DNA of 64,000 bases, taken from the NCBI RefSeq assembly GCF_041080625.1, contig NZ_CP163518.1:6503501-6567500 (forward strand), in the 5' to 3' direction. This document shows positions 6,391 through 29,117 of the stretch, in pieces. The position numbers were made by a program, and so were the translations under genes. Numbering within the stretch: position 1 is the first letter of the stretch; every line of letters begins with the position of its first letter. Source of the stretch: Streptomyces sp. CG1. GTDB taxonomy: Bacteria; Actinomycetota; Actinomycetes; Streptomycetales; Streptomycetaceae. The notes beneath the pieces are model-generated. The model was not told the DNA's origin. It made no database searches and saw nothing but the letters and a program-made list of their open reading frames with translations.

Positions 6391-6801
6391 TCAGGCCCTG
6401 CGGCCCAGCTCCCGGCGCTTGGTGTAGTCCGTGAAGCCGAGGATGTTGCCCCAGGGGTCGGCGATCTCCACGGTCCAGCCGGTGGCCTCCTGGAACACCT
6501 CGTCCAGCGGCATGATGCCGGCGTCGGCCAGCTCCCGCGCTGCGGCCCGCGCGTCCGGCACCTCCAGCCAGATGTGCGGCGAGTGCCACGGCGGCGGGCG
6601 GTGCCCCAGCGCCAGCTCGGCGCGCAGCAGGATCCCGGGTGTCTCCCCGCCGACCTTCAGCTGTGCGATCCCGGCCTCGTCGAACCGGAACCCTACGGTG
6701 AATCCGGCCCGCTCATAGAAGTCGAGGGCCTCGCCGAGGTCGCCGACGGGGAGCAGCACGTTGTCGAAACCGAGCAGTTCGTACGACTCTTCGTCTGACA
6801 T
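6391..6801 (-). CDS. VOC (glyoxalase/bleomycin-resistance fold) protein
   Basis: 136 residues with two beta-alpha-beta-beta-beta modules: NVLLPVGDLGEALDFYERAGFTVGFR at the N terminus and GWTVEIADPWGNILGFTDYTKR at the C terminus. DPWGN is the usual late VOC signature. Members are metal-dependent lyases, dioxygenases or drug-binding proteins; candidate metal ligands are His/Glu residues in PHIWLEV and the C-terminal strand. No substrate is indicated. The gene ends 47 bases before the TetR start on the same strand, so the two may be cotranscribed. A strong terminator lies upstream, between it and sdhB. Confidence 0.8.
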   Translation of the reverse strand: MSDEESYELLGFDNVLLPVGDLGEALDFYERAGFTVGFRFDEAGIAQLKVGGETPGILLRAELALGHRPPPWHSPHIWLEVPDARAAARELADAGIMPLDEVFQEATGWTVEIADPWGNILGFTDYTKRRELGRRA

Positions 6802-15140: not shown

Positions 15141-15875
15141 ATGATCGTGGAGGGCGGAGACACGGCCGGTGCGTGTCGGACCGTGACGGCGGCGCCACGC
15201 AGTGGCCGTGAACTGGGCACGAACGAGGACGTCTTGGGCCAGGGAGGGGAACCCCGGCGCGCACAGCCGCGGGACGGGGAGCTGGGCGCGGCCGTCGCGC
15301 GCGCCCAGGACGGTGACGAGACCGCCTTCGCGGTGGCCTACCGGATCGTGCAACCCGGCCTGCTCGGCTATCTGCGGGGCCTGGTCGGCGAGGACGCCGA
15401 GGACGTGGCCGCCGACGCCTGGCTGGAGATCGCCCGCGACCTCGGCCGGTTCCAGGGCGACGGCGCCGGCTTCCGCGGCTGGACCGCGACCATCGCCCGG
15501 CACCGCGCCCTGGACCATCTGCGCCGCCGGCGGGTACGGCCCCGCATCGCGCCGCTCGAGCAGGACGCGCTGGAGCTGCCCGGTCGGCTGAGCACGCACG
15601 ACCAGGCCCTGGAGACACTGTCCACCGAGCGGGCGCTGGACCTCGTGCGCAGCCTGCCGCGCGACCAGGCCGAGGCCGTGCTGCTGCGGGTGGTCGTCGG
15701 CCTCGACGGCCCGGCCGCCGCACGCGTCCTCGGTAAGCGCCCCGGCGCCGTCCGCACGGCCGCGCACCGCGGGCTGAAACGCCTCGCCCGGAACCTGGGC
15801 GGCCAGCGCGCCGCGTATGAAGGCGGCGAAGGTGTGACGGATGACGGCCCTCGCACGCTGGGTGAGTCGACATGA
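15141..15875 (+). CDS. ECF-type RNA polymerase sigma factor (module 1)
   Basis: Up to 244 residues. Sigma2 region: AYRIVQPGLLGYLRGLVG, AEDVAADAWLEIARDLGRF, FRGWTATIARHRALDHLRRR. Sigma4 region: LVRSLPRDQAEAVLLRVVVGLDGPAAARVLGKRPGAVRTAAHRGLKRLA. It should direct polymerase to a small set of promoters. The start is uncertain: ATG 15141, GTG 15183 or TTG 15234. The TTG matches the start of the paralogue at 27400 and has GAGGA just upstream. The gene is followed after 114 bases by a one-pass membrane protein, and the pair is duplicated at 27.4-29.1 kb. Confidence 0.87.
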   Translation: MIVEGGDTAGACRTVTAAPRSGRELGTNEDVLGQGGEPRRAQPRDGELGAAVARAQDGDETAFAVAYRIVQPGLLGYLRGLVGEDAEDVAADAWLEIARDLGRFQGDGAGFRGWTATIARHRALDHLRRRRVRPRIAPLEQDALELPGRLSTHDQALETLSTERALDLVRSLPRDQAEAVLLRVVVGLDGPAAARVLGKRPGAVRTAAHRGLKRLARNLGGQRAAYEGGEGVTDDGPRTLGEST

Positions 15876-15989
15876 ACGGCGCCGACCGTTACCCGTACGG
15901 ACACGGGGAAAACATCGGTCCCGGACCCGTTACGAGGTCCGGGAGGAGGTCGCGCGTCTCCGGTACGCCGGAAGAGGACGGGAACAGGC

Positions 15990-16835
15990 ATGGGTGAACG
16001 GCACAGCGGCGACGGTCCCTTCAGTCGTCGGCACGGGCACCCCGGCGGCACCCTCTCCGCACCGGACCACTTCGCGGGACACCTCACGGCCTCCGGCTTC
16101 GAGGCGCGGCTCGCCGCCGCCCTGTGCGCCGGCGGCGTCGACGCTGGTGCCGAGCGCCGCGCGGTGGCCGCTTTCCGGGCCGCCCGTGAGACACAGGCGT
16201 CCGCCGCGCGCACTCGGCGCCGGGACGACTGGCGGCCCGCCGCGCCGAGCCGCGGGCGGCGCTCGCTGCGGGTGACGCTCTCGGTGGCGTGCGCGAGCCT
16301 CGCGCTGGGCGGTGTCGCCGTCGCGGCGATCGGCTCCGCCCGGCCGGGCTCGGACGACCGGCACGACACCCCGCGCCCGGCCCGCCCGTCGGCGAGCGGC
16401 CCGCTCCGGCCGGGCGCTCCCGGTGCGTCCGCCGGGACCACCGGACCGGGACCGGCGAGCCCGTCCGCCCGCCCGCAGCATCCGGCCACCGCGCGGGACA
16501 CCGTGGCCCACTGCCGCACCTATGAGCGGGCCGGGGAACGGGGCGGCGCGCTGGGCTCGGCTGCCTGGCGGCGGCTCGTCGCGGCGGCGGGCGGCGCGGA
16601 CAAGGTCGCGGCCTACTGCGTGGCCCAGGTGGCGAACGACACAGCCGGCGATGGTCAAACGGCCGGAAAAGACTCCAAGTCAGGTAAGCCGGGTGCCAAG
16701 TCGGAGTCGGGCGACGGCAGCTCGAAGCGGAAGCCGGTGACGGGGAAAGCGAAGCCGGACGCGGGGAGCGGGGAGTCCGCCACGGGCAACGCCAAGCGGG
16801 GCGACGGGAAGGCGAAGGCCGCCAACGGCGGCTGA
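15990..16835 (+). CDS. single-pass membrane protein, putative anti-sigma/sensor of module 1
   Basis: 281 residues. The cytoplasmic part (~1-88) holds FEARLAAALCAGGVDAGAERRAVAAFRAARE, one TM segment follows (LRVTLSVACASLALGGVAVAAIG), then a Pro/Ser/Gly-rich outer region with a helical piece carrying two Cys (AHCRTYE and AAYCVAQV, 38 apart), and a Lys/Ser/Gly-rich tail. Its place right after the ECF sigma gene and the same layout in the paralogue at 28062 suggest it holds or senses for the sigma factor. No zinc-anti-sigma HxxxCxxC motif is present, so the anti-sigma role is inferred only. Confidence 0.68.
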   Translation: MGERHSGDGPFSRRHGHPGGTLSAPDHFAGHLTASGFEARLAAALCAGGVDAGAERRAVAAFRAARETQASAARTRRRDDWRPAAPSRGRRSLRVTLSVACASLALGGVAVAAIGSARPGSDDRHDTPRPARPSASGPLRPGAPGASAGTTGPGPASPSARPQHPATARDTVAHCRTYERAGERGGALGSAAWRRLVAAAGGADKVAAYCVAQVANDTAGDGQTAGKDSKSGKPGAKSESGDGSSKRKPVTGKAKPDAGSGESATGNAKRGDGKAKAANGG

Positions 16836-16940
16836 ACGAGGGCGGTTTCGGCCCGCTGAGGCAACGGCCGGAGGCTGGGGGAGGGGCGCGTTGATCACGG
16901 AGTCGGAGATCCGCTCGGTGGGGCGTGGGGTGGGCATGGG

Positions 16941-16974
16941 CCGGGCCGGACACCGCGCGTGGTGTCCGGCCCGG
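16941..16974. terminator. bidirectional terminator hairpin
   Basis: Perfect 14-bp stem (16941-16954 with 16961-16974) and a 6-base loop GCGCGT. It lies between the convergent module-1 membrane protein (ends 16835) and the FG-GAP gene (ends 16985), only 10 bases past the latter. It probably stops transcription from both sides. Confidence 0.75.
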
Positions 16975-16984
16975 GGACCGGAGA

Positions 16985-19930
16985 TCAGGACATCCCGGTG
17001 TAGTTCCAGCCGGTCGCTGCTTTGATCCGTCCGCCGAAGGAGCCCTTCCCGAGACCCGGGTTGACCCACATGGTGCCGGAGGAGTCCCGTTCGACGAGGT
17101 CGGGCTTGCCGTCACCGGTGATGTCGCCGACGCCGATCACGGCGTTGTACCCGGTGCCCCAGTTGCTGAAGACCAGCTTGCGGGACTGGAAGTTGCCGTG
17201 GCCGTCGCCTGCCATCAGCCACAGGCTGCCGGAGCGGTCGTAGGCCAGCAGGTCCCCGATCGCGTCGCCGGTCACGTCACCGATCGAGATCAGCTTCGCG
17301 TAGGTCAGTCCGGAACGGACCAGTTGCCGGGCCCCGAGCGTCCCCTGCTGGGTGACCGGGATGACATACAGGTCACCGGTCGAGGCGCTCCACGCCACCA
17401 GGTCCGGGGTGCCGTCGCCGTTCAGATCACCCGGTGAGGAGAGCCACTTGTACTGATGGAAGCCGGTGCCCAGCGAGGCGTACGAGGTCTTCGGCGAGGG
17501 CCAGTGCCCGCATCCGGCGTGGTACGCGCGCAGTTCACCGCCAGGCATGCGCACCAGCAGTTCGTTGCAGCCGTCCCCGTTGATGTCGCCGAAGGGCACC
17601 GCGGTGATCCCGCTCGGCCAGCCGCTGCTGCCGCTCGTGCCGGTGAACGTGCCGTCCGCGCGGGATGAGAAGTGAGCCGTGAGCCAGCCCGTCGAGGTCA
17701 GCGTGGTCAGGGAGCCGAGGCCGCTCGCGCTGTAGTCCCGGTAGGCGTCCGCGGCACCGGTCAGCCGCAGGGTGCCGGTGGTCACCGCCCTGGTGCCGTC
17801 GGCCGCCGTGGCCGTCACCTTCCAGGTGTAGGTGCCGTTCGGGAGCGCTGTGCCGCTGTCGGCGCGGCCGTTCCACGTCACGTCGACCGAGGCCCCCGCA
17901 ACTTCGGCCGTCTGGGTGCGGAGTACGTGGCCGAAGGGGTCGCTGAACGTCACCGTCGCCGAGGCCGCGGGACGTGACAGCTGAATGGTCAGCCTTCTGC
18001 CGCTCGTACGCGGGTCGATCGCGGCGATCGGGGAACGCGGCACGGAGACCGGCACCAGATGGACGCGCTGTTGGGAGTCGACGTAGGCCGCGGAGCCGCC
18101 GAACCTGTCGACCGTCCAGACCCCGGTGGTCGCGCCGGCGAACTCGGTGGTCACCGGCGCTGTTCCCGCGCCGTTGTGGAAGTCGGTGAGCATCAACGCG
18201 CCGGTGGCCGCGTCGCGCAAGACCAGGTAGCCGTCCCCGAGTTGAGCCTGCCCGTAGCGGACCGGGATGTTCTTGCCCGCGGTCAGGTCCCATACCCCGG
18301 CCTTGTCGGTGACTCCGTCGACGTGCGCGCAGGACCAGTACAGCCAGCGGCCGACGGCCTGGACCGCGGACAGGTTCCCGCACGCCGGGTCCACCGGGAG
18401 ATCTGCCGTGTACCGCTTCGAGACCAGGTCGTAGGACCTGACGTCACCGTGGTGGCCCGGGTCCTCCTCCCAGACCTTCCGGCCCCACAGTGACGCCGCC
18501 TCGGTGGTCGACTGGTAGGGGAGCGCGCTGGGGGCCTCGAAGTCCTGGACGAAGAAATATCCGCTGTCGTGCTGGAGGATGTAGCGCCCGGAGGCGGCCA
18601 CCACCGCGCCGGTCGCGTAGAGGTGCTGGGAGGATCCGCCGGCGCCCGGCGAAACGATGCCGTCGGATGTCTGGTAGGCCACTTGCCCGTTGCCGCGCGC
18701 GATGACCCCAGTGCCGTGCTGCGTGACGATGGTGCGCGGCCCGGCCTGCAGGGAGGAGCTGATGTCGCGCTCGTACACGGGGTCGGGCAGCGCCGAGTTG
18801 GACACCCAGTCGTCATTGGCCAACGTGCCCGCGCCCAAGGAAAGATCCCGCACCTGTGCGGGAAGCGGCGGCACCCGTTGTACGACGGAGCTTGTCGGCA
18901 CCTGGCCGGAAGCCGCGGTGATCCTGCGGACCGCCCAGTCCTCGGAGCTGGTTCCGGCGGTGACCAGCACACTGCCGTCAGGCGCCGTCACCAAGTCCGG
19001 CTGTGCCCAGGGGAACAGCTTCTGAGTGGCCCCGCCGCCGATCGGCACCGCCTGCAAGGCATCGCCGGGAGCCGTGTAGGTCGTGGTGATCAGGTGGTTC
19101 ACGAGGATCCAGCCACCGGTCACGGCGATGTCGGCAACCCCTGCGTCATTGTTCGCGACGGCGGCCGGCAGGGGCGTCCGCGTCGGCGTCGCGCCGGGAT
19201 CGTCCCGGGGGACGGTGTCGACGTACGTGGGCCAGGAGTTCGGATAGGCGTACACCTGGCCCGCCGAAAGACCGATCTTCACCGAGGTGATGTCCGTCCC
19301 CGCGAAGATCTCGCGCACGGTCGCGGCAGCGTAGTCCACCAGGAACGGCAGCTCTCCGGAGGCGGTGCGCAGATACAGCACAGCACCGGCGTCGTCCTGG
19401 GTCAGCACTCCGGCGAAACCGGTCACCTCCGGCGGGCACGGGATGGGCGTGTCGGTGACCTGGCCGTTCGCGGACCGCACCAGATGCAACACCTGCGGGC
19501 CGCTCTGCTGCGCATGGGTGAGGATGGACGAGCCGGTGTAGGCGCGCGTCCACACCTGTCCCGCGGGCGGCTGGATGGAGGTGGTGGCCTGGGTCGCCAG
19601 GTCCTCGATGTGTACGACTGGGCTTCCCGACTCCAGCACGGCGCCCAGGCCATCGTGGGGGAATCCGACCGCGGGCGTGACGGTGTACGACTGTCCTGAG
19701 GCATCGTCGGTCCACTGCGTCCCGGACGTGCCCTGCTGTGTATGCAGATATCCGGTGTCACCCGCCGCCTTCACAGTGTCCTCGCGCGGCACGTATGCGG
19801 CATCAGCCGGTAGCACGACCTCGCCGGAGGTGTCCGCCTGCGCGGGCCCTGCTGCGAACCCGACGCCCGGAACCAGGCTGAATGCTGCGGACGCGGCCAC
19901 CAAGCCGCGTCTGAGGGCGCGTTGAGCCAC
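16985..19930 (-). CDS. secreted FG-GAP/VCBS repeat protein with FlgD-like Ig domain
   Basis: 981 residues. The GTG at 19930 was chosen because GGGGAGGAATGG lies just upstream and a signal peptide follows (RALRRGLVAASAAFSLVPGVGFAAGPAQA). The first ~650 residues look like a WD/Kelch-style beta-propeller. Next comes a FlgD-type Ig module (SDPFGHVLRTQTAEVAGASV... NGTYTWKVTATAADGT). The C-terminal ~230 residues hold four Ca-binding repeats: DINGDGCNEL, DLNGDGTPDL, DVTGDAIGDL, DITGDGKPDL. The likely role is an extracellular binding or scaffold protein. It lies at the left edge of the accessory block. Confidence 0.85.
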   Translation of the reverse strand: MAQRALRRGLVAASAAFSLVPGVGFAAGPAQADTSGEVVLPADAAYVPREDTVKAAGDTGYLHTQQGTSGTQWTDDASGQSYTVTPAVGFPHDGLGAVLESGSPVVHIEDLATQATTSIQPPAGQVWTRAYTGSSILTHAQQSGPQVLHLVRSANGQVTDTPIPCPPEVTGFAGVLTQDDAGAVLYLRTASGELPFLVDYAAATVREIFAGTDITSVKIGLSAGQVYAYPNSWPTYVDTVPRDDPGATPTRTPLPAAVANNDAGVADIAVTGGWILVNHLITTTYTAPGDALQAVPIGGGATQKLFPWAQPDLVTAPDGSVLVTAGTSSEDWAVRRITAASGQVPTSSVVQRVPPLPAQVRDLSLGAGTLANDDWVSNSALPDPVYERDISSSLQAGPRTIVTQHGTGVIARGNGQVAYQTSDGIVSPGAGGSSQHLYATGAVVAASGRYILQHDSGYFFVQDFEAPSALPYQSTTEAASLWGRKVWEEDPGHHGDVRSYDLVSKRYTADLPVDPACGNLSAVQAVGRWLYWSCAHVDGVTDKAGVWDLTAGKNIPVRYGQAQLGDGYLVLRDAATGALMLTDFHNGAGTAPVTTEFAGATTGVWTVDRFGGSAAYVDSQQRVHLVPVSVPRSPIAAIDPRTSGRRLTIQLSRPAASATVTFSDPFGHVLRTQTAEVAGASVDVTWNGRADSGTALPNGTYTWKVTATAADGTRAVTTGTLRLTGAADAYRDYSASGLGSLTTLTSTGWLTAHFSSRADGTFTGTSGSSGWPSGITAVPFGDINGDGCNELLVRMPGGELRAYHAGCGHWPSPKTSYASLGTGFHQYKWLSSPGDLNGDGTPDLVAWSASTGDLYVIPVTQQGTLGARQLVRSGLTYAKLISIGDVTGDAIGDLLAYDRSGSLWLMAGDGHGNFQSRKLVFSNWGTGYNAVIGVGDITGDGKPDLVERDSSGTMWVNPGLGKGSFGGRIKAATGWNYTGMS

Positions 19931-20134
19931 CCATTCCTCCCCAAAAAGCAGCGCATGGCTGGAAGCGCGACTGTGAAAAGCGAAGCAGAAGACCCCGGCT
20001 GGGGCCCCACCCCCATGCAAGTGGCTGGATCTTAGCGCTGCTCACTCGTCGCAAGGGCAACGAAAGCGCAAACCCCGGACGTTGCTGGTTCGCCGTAGTC
20101 GTTCTGCGACGCCCATCCGCAAGGCGAACACATC

Positions 20135-20167
20135 AAGCCTGAATTCAATGGTGTTCAGGCTTTTTGA
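20135..20167 (+). terminator. rho-independent terminator with no gene upstream
   Basis: The 9-bp stem AAGCCTGAA (20135-20143) pairs with TTCAGGCTT (20154-20162), followed by TTTTGATTT on the plus strand. This is the only classical T-tailed terminator in the window. No plus-strand gene precedes it: 19931-20134 is the divergent upstream region of the FG-GAP gene. It may end a small RNA or be a relic. Confidence 0.6.
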
Positions 20168-20343
20168 TTTCAGCCGACAGACGAGGGACGACATCTGTTT
20201 GAGTGTCAAGCCTTGGCGCCAGGTCTTAGGTGGTGCGTGTTGAACATTTCACAGGCCACGGCTGCCGGGTTGGGCCGGGAAAGTTCAAGTTCAGTGACGG
20301 AGAGCAATCCGCGGCGCCTGGGGCGAGGTGGAGCAGAGGCGGC

Positions 20344-20382
20344 GCCCGCCTGGTGGCGACCCCCGTGCGTCACCAGGCGGGC
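20344..20382. repeat. 12-bp inverted repeat upstream of the regulator promoter
   Basis: GCCCGCCTGGTG (20344-20355) and CACCAGGCGGGC (20371-20382) form a perfect 12-bp stem with a 15-base loop. It lies just before the -35 element of the triple-HTH gene and could be an insulating hairpin or an operator. Confidence 0.55.
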
Positions 20383-20392
20383 AGGAGCGCGG

Positions 20393-20421
20393 TTGATCTC
20401 TCCGGTACCGGAACTTACGAT
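20393..20421 (+). promoter_or_regulatory. promoter of the triple-HTH regulator with palindromic operator in the spacer
   Basis: TTGATC (20393-20398), a 17-base spacer and TACGAT (20416-20421) give a good vegetative promoter about 80 bases before the ATG at 20500. The spacer holds a perfect 12-bp palindrome, TCCGGTACCGGA (20401-20412). A palindrome exactly between -35 and -10 is a typical site for repression, possibly by the regulator itself. The rest of 20041-20499 holds only the two hairpins listed. Confidence 0.6.
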
Positions 20422-20499
20422 ACATGCGGCGCGGTATCAAGCGAGAGGTTAAAGTTCCCCTGTTCCCTTCCCGAGGTCGATCAGTGGCAGGAGTCCCGC

Positions 20500-21375
20500 A
20501 TGCCCCCACGCCTCTTCGACGGCAGGCGCGTGCGCGCCGCACGTCGAGGGAAGGACCTCACCCAGAAGCAGATGGGCGCGGCAGTCGGCGTCACAGGCGC
20601 GGCAGTCGCGCGATGGGAGAGCGGCGAGGACTTTCCTCCGGGTGAGAAGCTGCCCGCCCTGGCCGCGGTGCTGGGGGAGCCGATCGATGTCTTGTTCCCC
20701 CGGGACGGAATGCCGGACCTGGCGGACCTGCGGTGTGATGCCGGTCTGAGCCAGAGGGAAGCCGCTGAGACCATCGGCGCCAGTCGCGTGCCATTGAGCA
20801 ACGCCGAGCGCGGCAAGCGCAAGCTCAACGACGCGTACATCGAGCCTCTGGCGGAGGCGTACAGGGCGACCACCGAGGAACTGCTGGCGGCACAGGAGCG
20901 CTCCTTCGGCAACCTGGCGCCGGGCGAGCCGTCGGCCGAGCAGTCGGCAATCCCGCGGACCCTCGCCGAGAAGATCACCTACATGATGACAACCTACCCG
21001 CCGGGCAACCAGCCCCCACAGGACGCGGAGATCGCCCAGGCCATCAACACGAAGGCCGGACATGATCTGGTCACGGCGGATGTCATCCGGGCGCTGCGGA
21101 CCGGCGCGCAGACCGTCGTCGGCCCGCAGGACCCCGCGGTACTCGAAGGCCTGGCCGAGGTGTTCAGGGTGCCGGTGATGTATTTCCAGCCAAACGAACA
21201 GGCGGCCCGACAGATCACCGAGGTCGCCGAGCTGCTGAAGGCGATCAACGACCGAAAGATCCTCGCTCTTGCCGCTCGCGGCAACGAGGACGGCCTGTCG
21301 TCGGACATGATCAGCATCGTGGCCAATCTGGCCGCTGGAATCCGCACGGGCACCATCCCGGGCGACGACCGCTAG
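20500..21375 (+). CDS. triple-HTH regulator: two XRE domains plus EspR-like domain
   Basis: 291 residues; ATG at 20500 behind GGCAGGAG. HTH 1 (about 7-65): KDLTQKQMGAAVGVTGAAVARWESG. HTH 2 (about 72-130): LRCDAGLSQREAAETIGASRV then LNDAYIEPLAEAYRATTEELL. Residues 153-285 look like M. tuberculosis EspR: TYPPGNQPPQDAEIAQAI, an HTH ending RALRTGAQTVVGPQDP, LAEVFRVPVMYF, then a helical dimerisation-type tail. EspR is a nucleoid-associated regulator. The gene leads the P450 gene on the same strand, and an ImmA-type peptidase, a class known to cleave XRE repressors, lies nearby. Confidence 0.85.
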   Translation: MPPRLFDGRRVRAARRGKDLTQKQMGAAVGVTGAAVARWESGEDFPPGEKLPALAAVLGEPIDVLFPRDGMPDLADLRCDAGLSQREAAETIGASRVPLSNAERGKRKLNDAYIEPLAEAYRATTEELLAAQERSFGNLAPGEPSAEQSAIPRTLAEKITYMMTTYPPGNQPPQDAEIAQAINTKAGHDLVTADVIRALRTGAQTVVGPQDPAVLEGLAEVFRVPVMYFQPNEQAARQITEVAELLKAINDRKILALAARGNEDGLSSDMISIVANLAAGIRTGTIPGDDR

Positions 21376-21580
21376 CACCCCGGCGGCTCGGTCACCTCAG
21401 CAACATGCCCGCGGCACGGCATCCCGAACAGGCGTCAGCCACGGTCCGCGTCACCGAGTCCAGGCCGGCGCCGCGCGGCTCCGGCGGACAGCCGCGACCA
21501 GGGCATGGTCCAGCAGCCACCACGGCGAGCCGAACGCCGCGAGGAGCCCCCTCCGCACCTGCCGGCGGCCACCGCCTCCA

Positions 21581-21626
21581 CCGCCGCCTGTGCCCCCGGG
21601 GCCGGCCCCGGGGGCACAGGCGGCGG
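21581..21626. repeat. 46-bp perfect palindrome between regulator and P450 genes
   Basis: Two 23-base arms (21581-21603 and 21604-21626) are exactly complementary with no spacer; the centre is GGGGCCGGCCCC. It lies 205 bases after the regulator stop and 101 bases before the P450 start. It could be a terminator or attenuator, or a cruciform or protein site. The rest of 21376-21727 holds nothing else I can support. Confidence 0.8.
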
Positions 21627-21727
21627 GATCCGGGCCATGCCCGGAAAGTGCCGAGGCGAGGGCGGCTGTCACTCCCGTACAGTCCGTCGTACCAGCGCTC
21701 CGTCAGCGGTTTACCAGGAGAAGAACC

Positions 21728-23059
21728 ATGGACACCGAAGCCGGTCCCGGCTCCCTGCCGTACGTCCCTGGAACGGGGCAGCCGGTCCCCGAAGCCGAGC
21801 CTGGACTCGTGGAGCGGTGGCGTTCGCAGAGAGGCGAACTGGTCGAGCTGCTGACCCAGGTGCGTGAGCGGCTCGGCGGGATCGGCGCCTTCCGCCTCGG
21901 GCCGACTCCCACCGTTCTCGTCACCGACCCGCGGGCGGTCCAGCACGTACTCGCCCGGCACCCTGAGCGGTACGTCAAGCGCTCCCACCGCGCCCGCCTG
22001 CTGATCGGCGACGGCGTCCTCTCCGCAACCGGCGAGACGTGGAAGCGACAACGCCGCTTGCTGCAGTCCCAGTTCACCGGTACCGGGATGCGCCGCTACG
22101 AACAGCGGATCACCGAGGCCGCCCGGACCACCGCCGGGCGCTGGGCCGGATACGCCCGGACCGCGCAGACCCTCGATGTCGGGCAGGAGATGCGCCGCTT
22201 CGCCCTGGACGCCATCTGGCGCTCCCTTACCGGGCATCCCCTCGATGATGAGACCGAGCGCGAACTGGCCGCCGTGGCAGCCGTGGCGGCCGCCCTGCCG
22301 ACTCTGCCCGCCGATGTCAGCGACGCCCGGGACGCCGTTGCCGCCGATCTCGCCCGGATCGATGCGGTCGCCCTGCACGCCATCGAGGCCGCCCGCAGCG
22401 GGGCGGCCGGCCCCGACGGTCCCGGGTTGCTGCAGGTCCTGATCGATGCCGCTACCGAACACCCCGAGTACACCGACCAGCTGATCCGCGACGAGCTGGT
22501 CACGTTGCTCGTGGCCGGGCACGAAACCACCGCTACCACATTGACCTGGCTCTACCTGCTCCTCGACCGGTATCCCGCCGCCCGTGAACAAGCTCTCGCC
22601 GCCGGCGGCGAAGGCTCACCACAACGCCGCCAGGCCATTCAGGCTCTGGTCCACGAGACGCTCCGGCTCTACCCGTCCGCCTGGATCCTGCCCCGCTACG
22701 CCACCGAGGACGACACCCTCGCCGGCTACGCCATCGAGGCGGGCACCGACATCCTTGTCTGTCCGTACCTCGCGCACCGCGACCCAGAACTGTGGCCGGA
22801 ACCGGAGCAGTTCGACCCCCGACGCTTCATGACCCCGGACGGCCGCCCTGCCCACCCGGGCGCCTACTTCCCCTTCGGCATCGGTCCCCGCGCCTGCCTT
22901 GGGATGCAATTCGCGCTCCGCGAATCGACCGTCCTGCTCGAACACCTGCTGCCGGCCCACACCGTCGCCTTCCAATCCACCCCCACGAAGGCGGTGTACG
23001 GCATCACCGTCCGCCCCGACGGCCCCACTCCGGCAACCTTGGAACCGCACCTCACCTGA
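21728..23059 (+). CDS. cytochrome P450
   Basis: 443 residues; ATG at 21728 behind CCAGGAG. It has the I-helix oxygen motif A263-G-H-E-T-T268, the K-helix E310-T-L-R313, the PEQFDPRRF meander, and the haem loop FPFGIGPRACLG with axial C390. The WKRQRRLLQSQF and HRDPELWPEPEQFDPRRF blocks put it nearer the CYP102/CYP4-like bacterial branch than the common Streptomyces CYP105/107 families. It is soluble with no fused reductase, and no ferredoxin is adjacent, so electrons must come from elsewhere. The substrate is unknown. Convergent with the membrane-protein gene at 23109. Confidence 0.93.
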   Translation: MDTEAGPGSLPYVPGTGQPVPEAEPGLVERWRSQRGELVELLTQVRERLGGIGAFRLGPTPTVLVTDPRAVQHVLARHPERYVKRSHRARLLIGDGVLSATGETWKRQRRLLQSQFTGTGMRRYEQRITEAARTTAGRWAGYARTAQTLDVGQEMRRFALDAIWRSLTGHPLDDETERELAAVAAVAAALPTLPADVSDARDAVAADLARIDAVALHAIEAARSGAAGPDGPGLLQVLIDAATEHPEYTDQLIRDELVTLLVAGHETTATTLTWLYLLLDRYPAAREQALAAGGEGSPQRRQAIQALVHETLRLYPSAWILPRYATEDDTLAGYAIEAGTDILVCPYLAHRDPELWPEPEQFDPRRFMTPDGRPAHPGAYFPFGIGPRACLGMQFALRESTVLLEHLLPAHTVAFQSTPTKAVYGITVRPDGPTPATLEPHLT

Positions 23060-23108
23060 AGCGTGCCTTTGCGCTGCCGCAGCACATCGGTGACAGTTCG
23101 AACGATGT

Positions 23109-24335
23109 TCATACGGCGGGCGCCTGCTCGGCCTCGGCGAGCAACTGCTCGGCTTGGGCCGCTGTGATCGAGGCGTAGGCCTTCTGCACGCGCACAAGCC
23201 ACGATTCCTGGGCCCTGGTGTCCACGATCGGCTTGGTGGGCAGCGCGGCGGAGGCGGCCTCCAGTCGCCGCCCGGCAGCCGCGGCCTGCAGTGCCGCCTT
23301 GATCCAGTAGGCCTCGGCGGCAGGCTTCGGGTCCGGGTGGCGCTCCGCGGCATCCTCGGCCACCGACAGCAACTCCGGCGGCGCGTAGTAGCGCAGCTTG
23401 TCCTCCACGTCGGTGATGTCCGCGACCCAGCGGTCGAGGCGGACGTCGACCGGCAGCGAGAAACGGGTGAGCTCGCGCAGCCGGGAGGCCGGCGGGGCGA
23501 AGGATGTGCCGGGAAAGGCCGTCACGAGATCGCGCCACAGCGGGTAGAGGCAGCGCAACGCGTTCCAGGCGCTCCAACGTGCCGCGACCGCACGGGTGGC
23601 GGGAATGCTTGTTCCCAGGGCGAGCATCAGGAAGAACACTTGGAACCACACCGCGGTCCACGTGACAACCTGCTGATCGGCAGCGTGACTCAGCGGAGCG
23701 GCTACGTCGATCCAGATCAACGCGATGCGGGCCGCCGTGTAGATGACACCCATCCACATGGAGACGGCCATCAGCAGCAGGCCCGTGCGCAGCAGCCTGG
23801 TCTCCGCGCGGCGGAAGGCGCCGGTCCACTGGTAGCCGGATGCCGTCGCGACAGCGATCGTGTAGAGGTAGAAGACGCTCAGGTAGGCCGCCGCTCCCCA
23901 TTGACCCGTGTGGTCGGTCACGAAGTCGGTGCTCGGGCTCTTCCGGTCGACCACGGTGAAGAAGAACACGGTCATCAGGACCATGACGATCAGCGCGCCC
24001 TTGGGAGCGAAACGGGCCATCCAGCGCGAGGCGGCTATGTGCCGGGGGACCACAGGTTCGCTGGTTCTGCCGTAGCTGGTCGCGACGTACGTCACCATGG
24101 CCATGAGCGCCACGGCACCGACCAAGTGCTTGAGCAGGACCGACAGATCGACAACTGGCACAGCGTCCAGCAGGTGCATCACCCCTGGCGTACTGAGCCA
24201 CAAGGTCACGGCGAAACCCGCGTAAATGCCCCACAGGGACAGTCGGTAGGCGTCGCCGTAACGGACAGCGGGGACCCGCCACACGGCAACAACCGTCAAC
24301 ACCAGCGCAGCAAGATACTCAAGCAGGGCAAGCAC
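23109..24335 (-). CDS. MAB_1171c/DUF6545-type multi-pass membrane protein
   Basis: 408 residues. The GTG at 24335 was chosen because AGGAG lies 8 bases upstream. About seven N-terminal TM segments, for example VLALLEYLAALVLTVVAVWRVP, LLKHLVGAVALMAMVTYVA, FAPKGALIVMVLMTVFFFTVV and VVTWTAVWFQVFFLMLALGTS, are followed by a ~170-residue cytoplasmic helical region (RCLYPLWRDLVTAFPG... DKLRYYAPPELLSVAEDA). Databases call such proteins putative transporters, but no transport motif is visible, and a sensor or lipid-enzyme role is equally possible. It lies 56 bases after the ImmA-type gene on the same strand, probably as one operon. Confidence 0.72.
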   Translation of the reverse strand: MLALLEYLAALVLTVVAVWRVPAVRYGDAYRLSLWGIYAGFAVTLWLSTPGVMHLLDAVPVVDLSVLLKHLVGAVALMAMVTYVATSYGRTSEPVVPRHIAASRWMARFAPKGALIVMVLMTVFFFTVVDRKSPSTDFVTDHTGQWGAAAYLSVFYLYTIAVATASGYQWTGAFRRAETRLLRTGLLLMAVSMWMGVIYTAARIALIWIDVAAPLSHAADQQVVTWTAVWFQVFFLMLALGTSIPATRAVAARWSAWNALRCLYPLWRDLVTAFPGTSFAPPASRLRELTRFSLPVDVRLDRWVADITDVEDKLRYYAPPELLSVAEDAAERHPDPKPAAEAYWIKAALQAAAAGRRLEAASAALPTKPIVDTRAQESWLVRVQKAYASITAAQAEQLLAEAEQAPAV

Positions 24336-24391
24336 GGCGAAGGACTCCTGACGAGGGGGCTTGCCCCGGCTCAGCCAGGGCACGAAAGCAG

Positions 24392-24961
24392 CTACCGCGT
24401 CCCGCGGAGCCGCGGAGGGGCGACAGGGTGGGACAGGGAGTGCTCAAGAAGGCTGACCATGTCCTCGCCCACCGAGGGCCGTTGGCGGGCGATCCGCTTG
24501 ATGAGCGAGGCCGAAAGCTCCGCCTCCTGCTCTTCGGGGGTGTCGTAGCGGGCTCGCGCCTGGACCACCGCACCGGGACCGAGACGGCCGAGGAGCCCTT
24601 GGTAGAGATCGCCCGGGACGTACTGCTCGATGTCCTGCCGGCTCAAGGAGGTGCCGTGGTCGAACCACTCATGGCAGAGCTCATGGAGGATCGTGTGCTC
24701 GGTCCCCGTCTGCGTCGGCCGGCGCCGGTACAACACGTACGTGACCTGGTCGGTCCTGACGCGCAGACCGCACGCGGCACGAAGCCCGCCCTCGGGCTCG
24801 GCAAGCTCCACCAGGTGGATGGAGCGACCCCGCGCATCCTCCATGTTCCGCACCAGCGCGTCCACACTGAAAGGGGTGGGCATGGGCAAATCGGCAAGAA
24901 GCCGCACACACCGCTTGTGCAACGCGCGAGGCGACAACGGCGCTTTGCTGCGCCACCACAT
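24392..24961 (-). CDS. ImmA/IrrE-type zinc metallopeptidase
   Basis: 189 residues. The ATG at 24961 was chosen because of GGCAGGAGG just upstream; a GTG 153 bases earlier would add 51 unlikely residues. The active site is H93-E94-L-C-H97 in HTILHELCHEWFDHG. The C-terminal part (EEQEAELSASLIKRIARQRP) has the ExEAE-type third-ligand context seen in this class. ImmA and IrrE cleave XRE-family repressors. The obvious local candidate target is the regulator at 20500. It is first in the minus-strand pair with the membrane protein. Confidence 0.82.
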   Translation of the reverse strand: MWWRSKAPLSPRALHKRCVRLLADLPMPTPFSVDALVRNMEDARGRSIHLVELAEPEGGLRAACGLRVRTDQVTYVLYRRRPTQTGTEHTILHELCHEWFDHGTSLSRQDIEQYVPGDLYQGLLGRLGPGAVVQARARYDTPEEQEAELSASLIKRIARQRPSVGEDMVSLLEHSLSHPVAPPRLRGTR

Positions 24962-25246
24962 GTGCTCCTCCTGCCAGGCCCCGGGACACGGGCCAGCCAT
25001 CAGCGCGGCCGCACCCACGCAGTACCCGGGCTGACCCGTCGGTTTCGCGCCGGAGCTGGCGAAGAGGACAGTACACAGCCGGAGTGACGACCCTCCCCTG
25101 GTTGGGCGCCTCACGTGAGACGCTCCCTCACCTGCCGCTCCATGTTGATCACGGCAGTGACCTGGTCTTTTCGCGTCGCCACGCAACTACGGGACAGCAG
25201 CTGTTGATGACCCGGTGATGGCCAAGAGGTGACACACGGCCAAGAC

Positions 25247-25276
25247 GTTATCGAAACGTTTTGTTGTGTGCAGTAA
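25247..25276 (-). promoter_or_regulatory. putative promoter of the peptidase/membrane-protein pair
   Basis: On the minus strand TTACTG (25276-25271), 18 bases, then GATAAC (25252-25247). The spacer contains the palindrome AAACGTTT (25255-25262). A start here leaves a leader of about 280 bases before the peptidase ATG; I find no convincing gene in that leader (24962-25240). Confidence 0.35.
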
Positions 25277-25301
25277 CATATTCGGCCGGTCAGTGACCAG
25301 G

Positions 25302-25332
25302 CCCTCCCCGTCCACCCCCGGGATGGGGAGGG
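25302..25332 (-). terminator. hairpin after the GH1-fold gene
   Basis: CCCTCCCC (25302-25309) pairs with GGGGAGGG (25325-25332), starting 15 bases past the GH1 stop on the minus strand. It is short and GC-rich with no T-run. Confidence 0.4.
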
Positions 25333-25346
25333 TCGGCCGCAGGTGG

Positions 25347-26660
25347 CTAGGCCCGCATCAGGGCCTGGATGGCGGTGGCGCTGGGACGAGGCTCGCGGTT
25401 GTGGTCGAACAGTCCGAAGGGGACCGAGAATCCGTTCAGCCACTCGTAGTTGTCCACCGCTGTCCACAAGTGGACACCAGCGATGTCCATACCGTCGGTG
25501 AGCGCATCGGCGACCTGGCGAAGCGCGGCGGTCAGGTAGGCGATGCGCTGGGTGTCGTCGTCGCCGCCGTAGCCGATCTCGGCCACCAGGTAGCGCTTGC
25601 CCGGCAGTTCTGTGCGCAGGCGGGTGAGGACCTGGCCCAACCCCTCCGGCCAGACGACGTAGCCTTGCGGGCCGACCGGTTCACCGGCCGGATAGGGGAT
25701 GATCTTCCCTTCGGCGGTGATGGCCGGGTTGTAATAGTAGCTGAAGCCGTAGAGATCGAATGCGCTTTCGTACCGCGTCATGCGTGCGAGGGAGAGCCAC
25801 GAGTCCCACACGGCCGCATCCAGATCAGCCGTCGCCGCCGCAGCGGCCGCGCTGTCGTCGGCCGGGTGCAGCACGGCCAGCGACTCATTCGTGGCGGTGG
25901 GCCGACCGCCCTGGCGCAGGCGCAGGGCTGCCTCGAAGTCGGCCTGGTGGATGGCCTGAAGGACCGTGCGGAACTCCTCGCGCGAAGTGTGTCCCGGCGG
26001 GAACGTGCCGGCCAGGTAGCCCTTCAGCGCGTAGCTGAAGGGGTTGTTGACCGGCATCCAGCCGCCGGCCAGGTCGCCGAAGGTCTCGCCGATGAAGTCG
26101 ACGTGGCGGGCCCACGTGGCGAGGGCCGAGGGAGCGAGGAATCCGCCGTCGGCGGCGAACCACTTCGGCAAGGCGGTATGCAAGAGACAGACCCATAGGC
26201 TCAGCCCCGACTGGCGGCCGGCCTGCAGGATCTGCCGGTAGTGCTCGATGGCCCGGGCGTCGTGCCGACCTGGTTGCGGTTCGAGCCGAGCCCAGTCCAG
26301 CGACAGCCGGTAGTCGCCGAATCCCCAGTCGGCCAGCAGGGCGAAGTCGGCCGCGTACCGGTCGTCGAAGCCGTTTCCGTCGCCGCTGGCGGGCGCCTTG
26401 CCGGCTTGCTCCCAGCCCCACCAGTTGTCTGCCGGAGTCGCACCCTGAGTCTGGGTGGCCGAGCTGGAGGAGCCCCAGCGGAACCCGGTGGGGAAGCGCA
26501 CATGGCCGGCGGCAGACGTCGTCAAAGCTACGGTCTCCTGATCGAGGCTGGCAGGGCGATCCGCAGAGTGTGACCGCGAGAGGCCCTGTGCCAGGACGGG
26601 CATCATCGCCGCGCACCCGAGTACGAAGGACCGCCGGGTGGTGAAGTTGGCCTTCGACAT
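25347..26660 (-). CDS. GH1-fold protein with Tat signal, acid/base Glu replaced by Asn
   Basis: 437 residues from the ATG at 26660. It starts with a Tat-type signal (FTTRRSFVLGCAAMMPVLAQG). The GH1 barrel is recognisable from FPTGFRWGSSSSATQTQGA through DWGFGDYRLSLDWARLEPQPG to DIAGVHLWTAVDNYEWLNGF. The nucleophile site is kept (E361 in VAEIGYGGDDD), but the acid/base motif N-E-P reads N205-N206-P207. Plant myrosinases also lack this Glu and hydrolyse activated thioglucosides. The protein could use activated substrates, transfer sugars, or only bind. No transporter or sugar regulator is adjacent. Confidence 0.83.
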   Translation of the reverse strand: MSKANFTTRRSFVLGCAAMMPVLAQGLSRSHSADRPASLDQETVALTTSAAGHVRFPTGFRWGSSSSATQTQGATPADNWWGWEQAGKAPASGDGNGFDDRYAADFALLADWGFGDYRLSLDWARLEPQPGRHDARAIEHYRQILQAGRQSGLSLWVCLLHTALPKWFAADGGFLAPSALATWARHVDFIGETFGDLAGGWMPVNNPFSYALKGYLAGTFPPGHTSREEFRTVLQAIHQADFEAALRLRQGGRPTATNESLAVLHPADDSAAAAAATADLDAAVWDSWLSLARMTRYESAFDLYGFSYYYNPAITAEGKIIPYPAGEPVGPQGYVVWPEGLGQVLTRLRTELPGKRYLVAEIGYGGDDDTQRIAYLTAALRQVADALTDGMDIAGVHLWTAVDNYEWLNGFSVPFGLFDHNREPRPSATAIQALMRA

Positions 26661-26789
26661 GTGCAGTTCAACCAGTTGCGGGACGCGCCACGGTCTTCTC
26701 CTTGCTGAGCGGTGCTCAGGGGTGAGGCTACCTGGTGGGGATCTTGCCGAGCGCCCCAGGCCTGTGCCGCGAGGACAACCTTCGCCTCG

Positions 26790-27065
26790 GCCGACGTACA
26801 CGACTCCAAGGCGGCACCGACGCGCGCCACCCGGATCAGCCTGCGGCGGCTGAACCTCCCCGAGAAGTTCCGCGTCCACGACTGGCGGCACGACAAGGTC
26901 ACCAACGACCTGGACGCGGGGAAGGACCCCGCGGAGGTCTCGGCCAATGTGAGACACCACACGTCGGACCGCACCCTGGCCCAGCATGGCACGCGCCGAG
27001 TCGAAGGGGCCCGCAGGCCGGCGTCCGGGACGGCTCGGCGCATCGTGCTGGAAAGGATCACATGA
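26790..27065 (+). pseudogene. tyrosine recombinase (integrase) C-terminal remnant
   Basis: The translated stretch ATRISLRRLNLPEKFRVHDWRHDKV... GKDPAEVSANVRHHTSDRTLAQHG matches the end of phage-type integrases: an HDxRH box and a later H-H box. The catalytic Tyr position reads Gln/His (LAQHG). No N-terminal or core-binding domain precedes it. It sits antisense to nothing else and ends near the right edge of the accessory block, so it probably marks an old integration event. Confidence 0.6.
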
Positions 27066-27149
27066 GGCGTTTGGCCGGGTGGCCGCGCGTTGGCCGCATT
27101 GGCCACCGATTCCGCGCATCATCCCAGGTCAGAGCGGAGAACTGAAGCA

Positions 27150-27218
27150 ACGGCCGGGGCCGCCACCCCCCACAGGAGAGGCCCCGGCCGTCGCGCTGAC
27201 GGGCCGCGCGCGGCCCGT
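27150..27218. repeat. two adjacent hairpins at the right edge of the accessory block
   Basis: ACGGCCGGGGCC (27150-27161) pairs with GGCCCCGGCCGT (27180-27191), a 12-bp stem. Eight bases on, 27199-27218 is a perfect 20-bp palindrome. They lie between the integrase remnant and sigma module 2. The rest of 27066-27399 shows only upstream sequence for the sigma gene. Confidence 0.6.
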
Positions 27219-27399: not shown

Positions 27400-28062
27400 G
27401 TGCTGGGGGACGACGCGGAGCTGACCGCCGCGGTGCGTGCGGCACAGGACGGAGACGAGACCGCGTTCCGTACGGTGTACCGCGCCGTGCAGCCGCGGCT
27501 GCTCGGATACGTACGCACGCTGGTCGGTGATCCGGACGCCGAGGACGTCGCGTCCGAGGCCTGGCTGCAGATCGCCCGCGACCTCGACCGGTTCAGCGGA
27601 GACGCCGACCGCTTCCGTGGCTGGGCCGCCCGGATCGCCCGTAACCGAGCCCTGGACCACATACGGATGCGCGGCCGCCGCCCCGCCATAGGCGGCGACG
27701 AGACGGAACTGACCGGCCGGGCCGCCGAGTCCGACACGGCCGGCGAGGCCATCGAGGCCCTGGCCACCGACAGCGCCCTCTCCCTCATCGCGCGGCTCCC
27801 GCAGGACCAGGCCGAGGCGGTCGTCCTGCGGGTCGTGGTCGGCCTCGACGCCAAGAGCGCCGCCGAGACGCTCGGCAAACGCGCCGGTGCCGTACGCACC
27901 GCGGCGCACCGCGGACTGAAACGGCTCGCGGAGCTGATCGGCGAGGATCCGGAATCGGTGGGTGCGCTGGATGCGCTCCCACCCCAGAGAGAACCGCGTG
28001 GCCGCGCGGTGTCGTCCGCAACTGTGACGGATATGCGTGCGCGGACGCAGAAGGACATGTGA
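27400..28062 (+). CDS. ECF-type RNA polymerase sigma factor (module 2)
   Basis: 220 residues; GTG at 27400 behind GGGAG. It is closely related to the sigma factor at 15141: ELTAAVRAAQDGDETAF, AEDVASEAWLQIARDLDRF, FRGWAARIARNRALDHIR, LPQDQAEAVVLRVVVGLD and LGKRAGAVRTAAHRGLKRLAELIG have near-identical counterparts there. A ~45-residue C-terminal tail follows region 4. The stop overlaps the next gene (TGATG at 28060-28064), so the two are translationally coupled. Confidence 0.9.
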   Translation: MLGDDAELTAAVRAAQDGDETAFRTVYRAVQPRLLGYVRTLVGDPDAEDVASEAWLQIARDLDRFSGDADRFRGWAARIARNRALDHIRMRGRRPAIGGDETELTGRAAESDTAGEAIEALATDSALSLIARLPQDQAEAVVLRVVVGLDAKSAAETLGKRAGAVRTAAHRGLKRLAELIGEDPESVGALDALPPQREPRGRAVSSATVTDMRARTQKDM

Positions 28063-29117
28063 TGGCCGACGAGCAGGACAAGTGGCTGAACCGTGAGACG
28101 GCGGAACGTCTGCTGCGCGGTGAGTCGCTGGAAGCCGTCGACGCCTCCGCACGTGACCAGGCCGAAGGCCTCTCCCAGGTGCTCGGCGCGCTGTCCGCGC
28201 AGGCGGCCCCCGCCACCGGTGAACTCCCCGGCGAACAGGCCGCCCTGGCCGCGTTCCGCAAGGCCCGCGAGGCCGCCGACGCCGAACGGACCGTCGCGGT
28301 CCGCGCCGCCGGCGCCTCCGCCCTGCCCGGGCCCGGCGGCGACGCGGGTCTGGTCCGCATCGGCGCCCCGGCCCGTACCGGAATCCGGGACCGGCGGCCC
28401 CGCTGGGCCCGGCCGGTGCGCCTGGGGCTCGCCGCCGCGCTGACCGTGGGCACACTGGGCGGGGTCGCCATGGCCGCCGGGACCGGGATGCTGCCCACGC
28501 CGTTCGAGCCCGCGCACCCCCGCCCCGCCGTCTCCGTCTCCGCCGACGGGTCCTCCGGGGGGCCGTCCGCCTCGGACTCGCCGCAGGGCACCGCGAGCCC
28601 GACTCAGCCCGGCACCCCGAGCGGCAGCACGGGCACGCGCCGCGGCGGCGCTTCCGGAGAAGCCTCCGGACCGGACGGCCGCCCGGGTGGCAGCGCCTCT
28701 CCGGGCGCCGGCGACCTCTCCGGCACGCTCGGCAGCCGCTGGAAGGACGCGGCCGCGGCCTGCCGCGACATCCAGGACGGCAAGGGCCTGGACACCGGGC
28801 GGCGGCGCGCGCTGGAGAACCTGGCGGGCGGGAGTGCCCGGGTGAGCCAGTTCTGCAAGGTCGTCCTGACCGCCGTCGACTCGGTCGGCGGCCAGGGGAG
28901 CGGCGGCCAGGGCGACGAGAACGGCGGCAACGGCAAGGACAAGGGCGGCAAAGGCCAGGGCGAAGGGAACGGCCAGGGCGGCGGCGACGGCGGTCACTTC
29001 GGCGAGGGCAACGGTAAGGACAAGCCCGGTGGCGGCGGCAAAGGCTGGCACGGCGAAGGTGCCTCGCCCCTTCCCTCGGCCCTCGCTCCGGTCCCCTCGG
29101 CCCTGGGATCTGTCTGA
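28062..29117 (+). CDS. single-pass membrane protein, putative anti-sigma/sensor of module 2
   Basis: 351 residues from the ATG at 28062 overlapping the sigma stop. The cytoplasmic region begins KWLNRETAERLLRGESLEAVDASARDQAEGL and includes AALAAFRKAREAADAERT; one TM follows (LGLAAALTVGTLGGVAMAAGTGM); then a long Ser/Pro/Gly outer linker, a small helical piece with two Cys (AAACRDIQ and SQFCKVVL), and a Gly/Lys/Asp repeat tail rich in GGNGKD-like units. The layout matches the module-1 protein at 15990. A sigma-holding role is inferred from coupling, not from a motif. Confidence 0.72.
   Translation: MADEQDKWLNRETAERLLRGESLEAVDASARDQAEGLSQVLGALSAQAAPATGELPGEQAALAAFRKAREAADAERTVAVRAAGASALPGPGGDAGLVRIGAPARTGIRDRRPRWARPVRLGLAAALTVGTLGGVAMAAGTGMLPTPFEPAHPRPAVSVSADGSSGGPSASDSPQGTASPTQPGTPSGSTGTRRGGASGEASGPDGRPGGSASPGAGDLSGTLGSRWKDAAAACRDIQDGKGLDTGRRRALENLAGGSARVSQFCKVVLTAVDSVGGQGSGGQGDENGGNGKDKGGKGQGEGNGQGGGDGGHFGEGNGKDKPGGGGKGWHGEGASPLPSALAPVPSALGSV

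Follow-up and report, generated by a model that had tools for sequence, protein, structure and literature searches.

Among the closest described counterparts of the system considered here is the ImmR/ImmA pair of ICEBs1, a mobile element of Bacillus subtilis, in which the XRE regulator ImmR is inactivated by the HExxH peptidase ImmA, according to the available part of the source (PMC8960796). The available part of a broader study describes COG2856-Xre gene pairs, in which a Zn peptidase is encoded in a putative operon with an Xre helix-turn-helix (HTH) protein whose proteolysis was proposed; these pairs are associated with RelE or PIN toxins, and that part mentions neither a membrane partner nor an enzyme slot (Makarova 2009, PMC2701414). 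The DNA stretch analyzed here (hereafter, the window) spans 64,000 nucleotides of Streptomyces sp. CG1 (NZ_CP163518.1, positions 6,503,501-6,567,500, in an 11.1-Mb assembly) and contains an integrated island that encodes a peptidase of the ImmA/IrrE type together with an XRE-type regulator (hereafter REG), a membrane protein of the MAB_1171c/DUF6545 family (hereafter MAB) and a cytochrome P450. As in the ImmR/ImmA system, REG is divergent from element genes in those relatives that are borne by elements; unlike that system, the window possesses a dedicated, predicted seven-helix membrane protein, two additional XRE domains and an EspR-like domain in the regulator, and an enzyme slot, and lacks transfer genes.

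The modeled peptidase and its catalytic motif also resemble IrrE/PprI, which are larger proteins with an extra domain, and CapP of the CapH-CapP system; the capH profile matches the second HTH domain of REG (2e-10), which is frequent for HTH domains. We know of no case in which IrrE/PprI or CapP is paired with a DUF6545 protein. In BlaR1/MecR1, a membrane sensor controls repressor proteolysis, as is proposed here, but sensor and peptidase form one polypeptide, whereas the window encodes two proteins of other folds. EspR, whose HTH domain is similar to the C-terminal domain of REG (E about 1e-4) and more weakly to the stand-alone regulators described below, is a separate protein that, to our knowledge, is not controlled by a peptidase. 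Searches of a library of open-access papers returned a single paper on MAB_1171c, nothing on DUF6545, nothing on ImmA/IrrE in connection with Streptomyces integrative elements and, among the papers listed and judging from titles and the opening lines of abstracts, no study of the set of regulator, peptidase and membrane protein; this triad may be an undescribed relay that passes a signal across the membrane via destruction of a regulator.

The conserved core of the locus consists of three genes, for the EspR-like XRE regulator, the ImmA/IrrE-type peptidase and MAB. A MAB relative is present in 113 of the 295 genomes of the same genus, and DUF6545 in 47 of the 246 genomes of a class-wide draw. 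Gene neighborhoods were compared in 104 diverse loci, namely 40 places from the class-wide draw (part of a larger listing), four pieces of the strain's own genome and 60 places chosen from the same-genus list of MAB relatives. The peptidase was found in 42 and the EspR-like XRE regulator in 35 of the 44 class-wide and own-genome loci, as judged by profiles iterated on those same loci, and in 57 and 52, respectively, of the 60 same-genus places. A non-iterated peptidase profile, built solely from the family of the window protein, matches within 2.5 kb of DUF6545 and on the MAB strand in 94 of the 104 loci (79 upstream, 15 downstream); ten loci have no match within this distance, and four matches lie farther off. 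Conversely, MAB is the next gene on the same strand in 76 of 80 peptidase relatives, and the other four loci (L058, L072, L074 and L108) stop at contig ends. The profile of the REG C-terminal domain matches 73 and that of the stand-alone XRE regulators 51 of the 104 loci. In 367,621 bases of control DNA, the peptidase, stand-alone-XRE and MAB profiles have no match, and the full REG profile has three. Because the triad recurs across genera, the gene set is not a product of chance. These modules are present on plasmids as well; all three plasmid records that were read label the peptidase, which the profile confirms, as hypothetical and MAB as a transporter or a DUF protein.

In the common layout, a stand-alone EspR-like regulator is encoded directly upstream of the peptidase and MAB, whereas in the window layout the EspR-like domain follows two XRE domains in a gene on the opposite strand that faces the pair, and the two usually enclose a gene for an enzyme. 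In 15 further loci, the order is MAB, a regulator or another gene, and the peptidase (the order MAB, XRE, peptidase is seen in L160, L214, L217-L222, L224, L227, L228, L230, L232 and L235). For the fused EspR-like domain, hhalign gives 98.4% (E 4e-15). The long form of REG is encoded in all 15 loci L120-L134, separated from the pair by other genes in L130 and L132 and with no gene in between in L133 and L134. In a midpoint-rooted MAB tree of 89 tips, for which the loci were filtered by length, the long-REG loci fall into two clades without other members, one of 17 tips (0.939) and one of 10 tips (0.999). Distances of the peptidase, MAB and REG across 27 of the 28 long-REG loci (L175 lacks one hit) are correlated with r of 0.85-0.93, a level reached in 0 of 2000 permutations, which shows joint inheritance, not interaction. 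Arrays of modules were considered and dropped, given that the 14 loci with an XRE gene after MAB have neither a second MAB nor an upstream peptidase. The strain's own genome contains seven DUF6545 matches, three of them in tandem at C1:3508474-3511868, and another triad (L137, C1:8236000-8255500) with an amidohydrolase, located beside relaxase, rep-like and WhiB genes. A plasmid of Streptomyces sp. NBC_00239 (L242) carries two modules back to back, one with an amidase and the other with a HAD hydrolase.

Pfam and NCBIfam profile searches of the window proteins (threshold 1e-3), along with the other comparisons given here, bear out the parts named in the original prediction: REG, the P450, MAB, the peptidase, a GH1-like protein, an integrase remnant and two palindromes all exist as described (Table 1). 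In REG, HTH_3 is detected in two stretches (69.3 bits), and the third region, residues 150-261, belongs with the EspR-like regulators by virtue of a weak similarity to EspR (PDB 3qwg, E 8.8e-5; one stand-alone relative gives 0.044). The P450 contains both the PF00067 domain and the heme-cysteine motif of this family; the three top NCBIfam models, all far under their cut-offs, are albaflavenone monooxygenase, the enzyme ApyO of ribosomally synthesized and post-translationally modified peptides, and pentalenene oxygenase, and the closest PDB relatives are 7wzl and CYP175A1. The peptidase, read as 189 residues with the start MWWRSKAP, ends 8 bp ahead of the MAB start. It matches no Pfam or NCBIfam profile at the above threshold; at E <= 0.1, the Pfam M78 profile detects six of 20 relatives, with 3.7e-4 as the best value, but not the window protein itself. 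Nevertheless, H93, E94, H97, E144 and E148 are invariant among 20 members of the family, so that the HExxH motif is intact and accompanied by downstream glutamates, one of which we take, by comparison with IrrE, to be a zinc ligand. The peptidase is predicted to adopt an IrrE-like fold; Foldseek on its own gives CapP at E 0.02 and IrrE at 0.19.

Table 1. Features of the Streptomyces sp. CG1 window (positions are those of the window)
Feature	Position	Strand	Basis or remark
Left repeat CTGAGGCAACGGCCGG, attL-like	16856..16871	+	
Integrated island, ~10.3 kb	16861..27146	.	Flanking genes joined across one terminator in 6/8 relatives; end repeats
FG-GAP/FlgD_ig repeat protein, island cargo	16985..20020	-	Profile search
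Conserved REG promoter element (AACTTACG ... TATCAAG ... TTAAAGT)	20400..20456	+	Comparison of long-REG loci
REG: tandem XRE HTH domains (~20521-20901) fused to EspR-like domain (~20950-21372)	20500..21375	+	Profiles, hhalign
Perfect 46-bp, GC-rich palindrome in the gap from REG to P450, not shared; either terminator-like or regulatory	21581..21626	.	
Cytochrome P450, enzyme in exchangeable slot	21728..23059	+	PF00067, 232 bits; heme motif FGIGPRACLG
MAB_1171c/DUF6545 protein, seven predicted transmembrane helices and helical C-terminal domain	23109..24383	-	NF042915, DUF6545
ImmA/IrrE-like metallopeptidase, HELCH at ~24671-24685	24392..24961	-	Motif HELCHEWFDH, IrrE-like model
GH1-fold protein, start inferred	25347..~26660	-	Aligns to beta-glucosidases
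Decayed tyrosine-integrase 3' remnant, Tyr position = His	26712..27065	+	Tail match to intact integrases
Right repeat CTGAAGCAACGGCCGG, attR-like, at start of conserved terminator-like hairpin	27142..27157	+	
Conserved terminator-like hairpin before ECF-type sigma gene	~27147-27195		

The MAB protein is a member of its family by both available profiles (NF042915, 138 bits against a cut-off of 100; DUF6545, 95 bits against 24.4) and is modeled as a bundle of seven helices that resembles a receptor, the DUF6545 domain being cytosolic. The alternative that MAB is a transporter, the expression of which is merely controlled by the peptidase-regulator pair, draws on the NCBIfam name of the family and from the available part of a study in which a knock-out of the gene in M. 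abscessus reduced the biofilm by about half and export was proposed (PMC8707978). Given that the listed fold matches, albeit weak, are seven-helix receptors and not transporters, that the cytosolic DUF6545 domain is conserved and that MAB is closely paired with the peptidase across genera, we regard this possibility as quite improbable.

These observations are compatible with the triad being a membrane-gated proteolytic switch. Under this scenario, MAB would sense a signal and control the peptidase encoded immediately upstream, probably on the same transcript; the peptidase would inactivate REG, a putative XRE/EspR-like repressor, by analogy with the action of ImmA on ImmR; loss of REG would shift the transcription of REG itself and of the exchangeable neighboring enzyme gene, here the P450; and the P450 might make or alter a small molecule. 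The three-gene set is probably a switch, and the chances that the complete chain, up to altered P450 transcription, is the payload of the island seem to us about even. A wider generalization, which we put forward tentatively and consider somewhat unlikely as it stands, is that MAB_1171c/DUF6545 proteins are bacterial seven-helix receptors that signal by setting free a soluble peptidase of the ImmA/IrrE type to act on an XRE repressor resembling EspR. Such a pathway across the membrane would be widespread among actinobacteria, use exchangeable enzymes and be partly spread by integrative elements, and its P450 could produce or destroy the very signal being sensed. A relay from receptor through peptidase to repressor would be unlike two-component systems. 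Should the triad prove to be a signaling unit, many actinobacterial loci would gain a functional hypothesis, considering how common MAB relatives are within the genus; furthermore, the exchangeable enzymes (P450, Nudix, HAD, amidohydrolase, amidase, methyltransferase) would point to small-molecule signals and to possible triggers of silent Streptomyces chemistry.

An enzyme slot does exist, but its occupant can be exchanged. The proposal that four families travel together survives for the regulator, the peptidase and the membrane protein but fails for the P450, the place of which is taken by other enzymes in relatives, so that co-inheritance of all four genes is rejected. A P450 beside this pair, as arranged in the window, is seen elsewhere only in L040, a 95% relative; the slot is occupied by a HAD hydrolase (PF00702 in the one member checked) in 11 of the 15 loci L120-L134, by a Nudix gene in six of L180-L189 (PF00293 confirmed for L180; also annotated as Nudix in pSMg1-2) and by an amidohydrolase-type gene in L175, whose cluster-mate in L137 is PF01979. 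In six of the 104 loci (L171, L173, L225, L236, L238 and L239), a P450 follows MAB on the same strand; all six are PF00067 proteins of one cluster, L173 being partial and without peptidase and XRE genes, and L236 without a detected XRE gene. Other occupants of the slot after MAB are methyltransferase, amidase, PAP2-like, SDR and FAD-enzyme genes (of each kind, one or two were checked), although a called same-strand gene is present within 450 bp in only 54 of the 104 loci and is an XRE regulator in 14 of these. The association of a P450 with MAB thus appears to have arisen at least twice, because the two lineages differ in layout and L236, the only one of the six loci to pass the length filter of the MAB tree, shares with the window no ancestor other than the root. 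In L094, a P450 relative (32%) is encoded about 6 kb from the pair. Only the window and L040 have the P450, GH1-like and FG-GAP genes next to the triad, as expected if they were chance neighbors in the island unrelated to the triad, and for the GH1-like and FG-GAP genes this probably holds; for all three genes together it seems rather unlikely, as the P450 lies between MAB and REG, where relatives carry another enzyme gene, and P450s follow MAB in the second lineage too.

The REG promoter element covers a -10-like box in many long-REG loci (judged by eye), and because it overlies this box of REG's own promoter, autoregulation of REG fits. Two palindromes, at the promoters of REG and the P450, had been pointed out; both are real (the former has arms at 20344-20358 and 20368-20382, 93% identical), but their sequences are unrelated. 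A shared operator is rejected, given that the element conserved among relatives does not include the palindromes and that an exact-string scan of the window, rather than a weight-matrix search, finds no string of the REG element at the promoter of the peptidase or of the P450. The string TATCAAG has one copy per strand in the window, the plus-strand copy being the one at REG, and the same scan finds no minus-strand copy between 19000 and 28000. Control of the P450 would therefore need read-through from REG or another site.

The block originally delimited at 20041..27065 is part of a larger unit, the island. Among 55 genomes that encode a relative of the L,D-transpeptidase located nearby, eight were read at the integration site; none of these eight pieces carries the block, and in six (L253, L254 and L257-L260) the site is empty, the gene at 15990-16835 being followed across one hairpin by the sigma gene at 27400, of the extracytoplasmic function (ECF) type (PF04542, PF07638). 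L256 lacks the first flanking gene, and L255 has a different left side, where, left of its position 6766, the same terminator directly adjoins genes that encode, as judged by eye, a 1751-aa protein and a FAD-type protein, perhaps another insertion. The end repeats read CTGA(A/G)GCAACGGCCGG (16 bases, 15 of 16 identical), the 11-base core GCAACGGCCGG occurs exactly twice in the 64 kb, and L040 retains a longer, 17-base copy of the left repeat. The G+C content in 1-kb bins, 65-71% within the island compared to 73-78% just to the left and 67-77% to the right, lends weak support. A tRNA-Ala at 19796-19888 was rejected as the attachment site, as it lies inside the FG-GAP gene on the same strand and the repeats lie elsewhere.

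The integrase remnant has lost its 5' part and stops 82 bp before the hairpin; it has no Pfam match at 1e-3, and PF00589 is not reported even at E <= 10. Its last 81 residues, however, are 63-70% identical to the intact integrases (PF00589, PF14659) of two other species, L270 and L272. These integrases end 87 bp and 72 bp, respectively, ahead of the same hairpin, which is 78-84% identical in those loci and precedes the orthologous sigma gene; in L270, the sigma gene does not follow until after 1.5 kb. The elements with these integrases contain polymerase A, DnaB-like and Toprim genes (L270) or ArdA (L272), and L271 has a degenerate integrase copy at the hairpin, which is used as an integration site in several Streptomyces species. 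An empty site, flanking repeats and a tyrosine integrase at the edge, if only as a remnant, identify the insertion as site-specific and the block as the remnant of a mobile element. Nine profiles for transfer and replication markers, derived from genes seen beside long-REG modules, have no match in the window, which thus does not qualify as an integrative conjugative or mobilizable element. The decayed integrase, the repeats, the same-family integrases at the same terminator and the lack of these markers therefore indicate that the island is a decayed passenger in a site that is used for integration.

At least two of the nine markers occur in the vicinity of the module in 12 of the 26 long-REG cases, in 14 of the 93 diverse cases and in none of the 79 clade B cases, a contrast that is overstated because the profiles derive from long-REG neighbors, piece lengths are unequal and related loci count as independent observations in the Fisher tests. 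This distribution, together with the divergence of REG from a rep-like gene in element-borne pieces, would suit an ImmR/ImmA-like switch for the element's own induction or immunity, of which the window copy is a relic left after loss of the transfer genes; the slot enzyme (Nudix, HAD or P450) would then serve the element, e.g., in conjugal immunity, in which the Nudix protein Pif of pSAM2 works, according to the available part of its description (PMC3218068). Apart from the favor that the marker profiles show to the long-REG group, the 79 marker-free clade B pieces imply a role of the triad outside elements, and in the window, where these markers are missing, the four module genes are nevertheless all open, with 94-97% identity to those of L040. 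We find the element-switch alternative possible but doubtful. The suggestion of a defence unit finds an echo only in REG, which receives 14 PADLOC profile hits via its HTH domains (best RmrA, 5.7e-14, with capH as given above); none of the five other proteins scanned is hit.

In the GH1-fold protein, the glutamate that we take to be the acid/base is replaced by asparagine (NEP to NNP) and the presumed nucleophile glutamate is retained, so that hydrolase activity is possibly altered or lost. The island is flanked by two paralogous sigma genes (15141-16835 and 27400-29117), each followed by a gene without a Pfam hit; the repeats D1 and D2 of these flanks are 83% and 71% identical.

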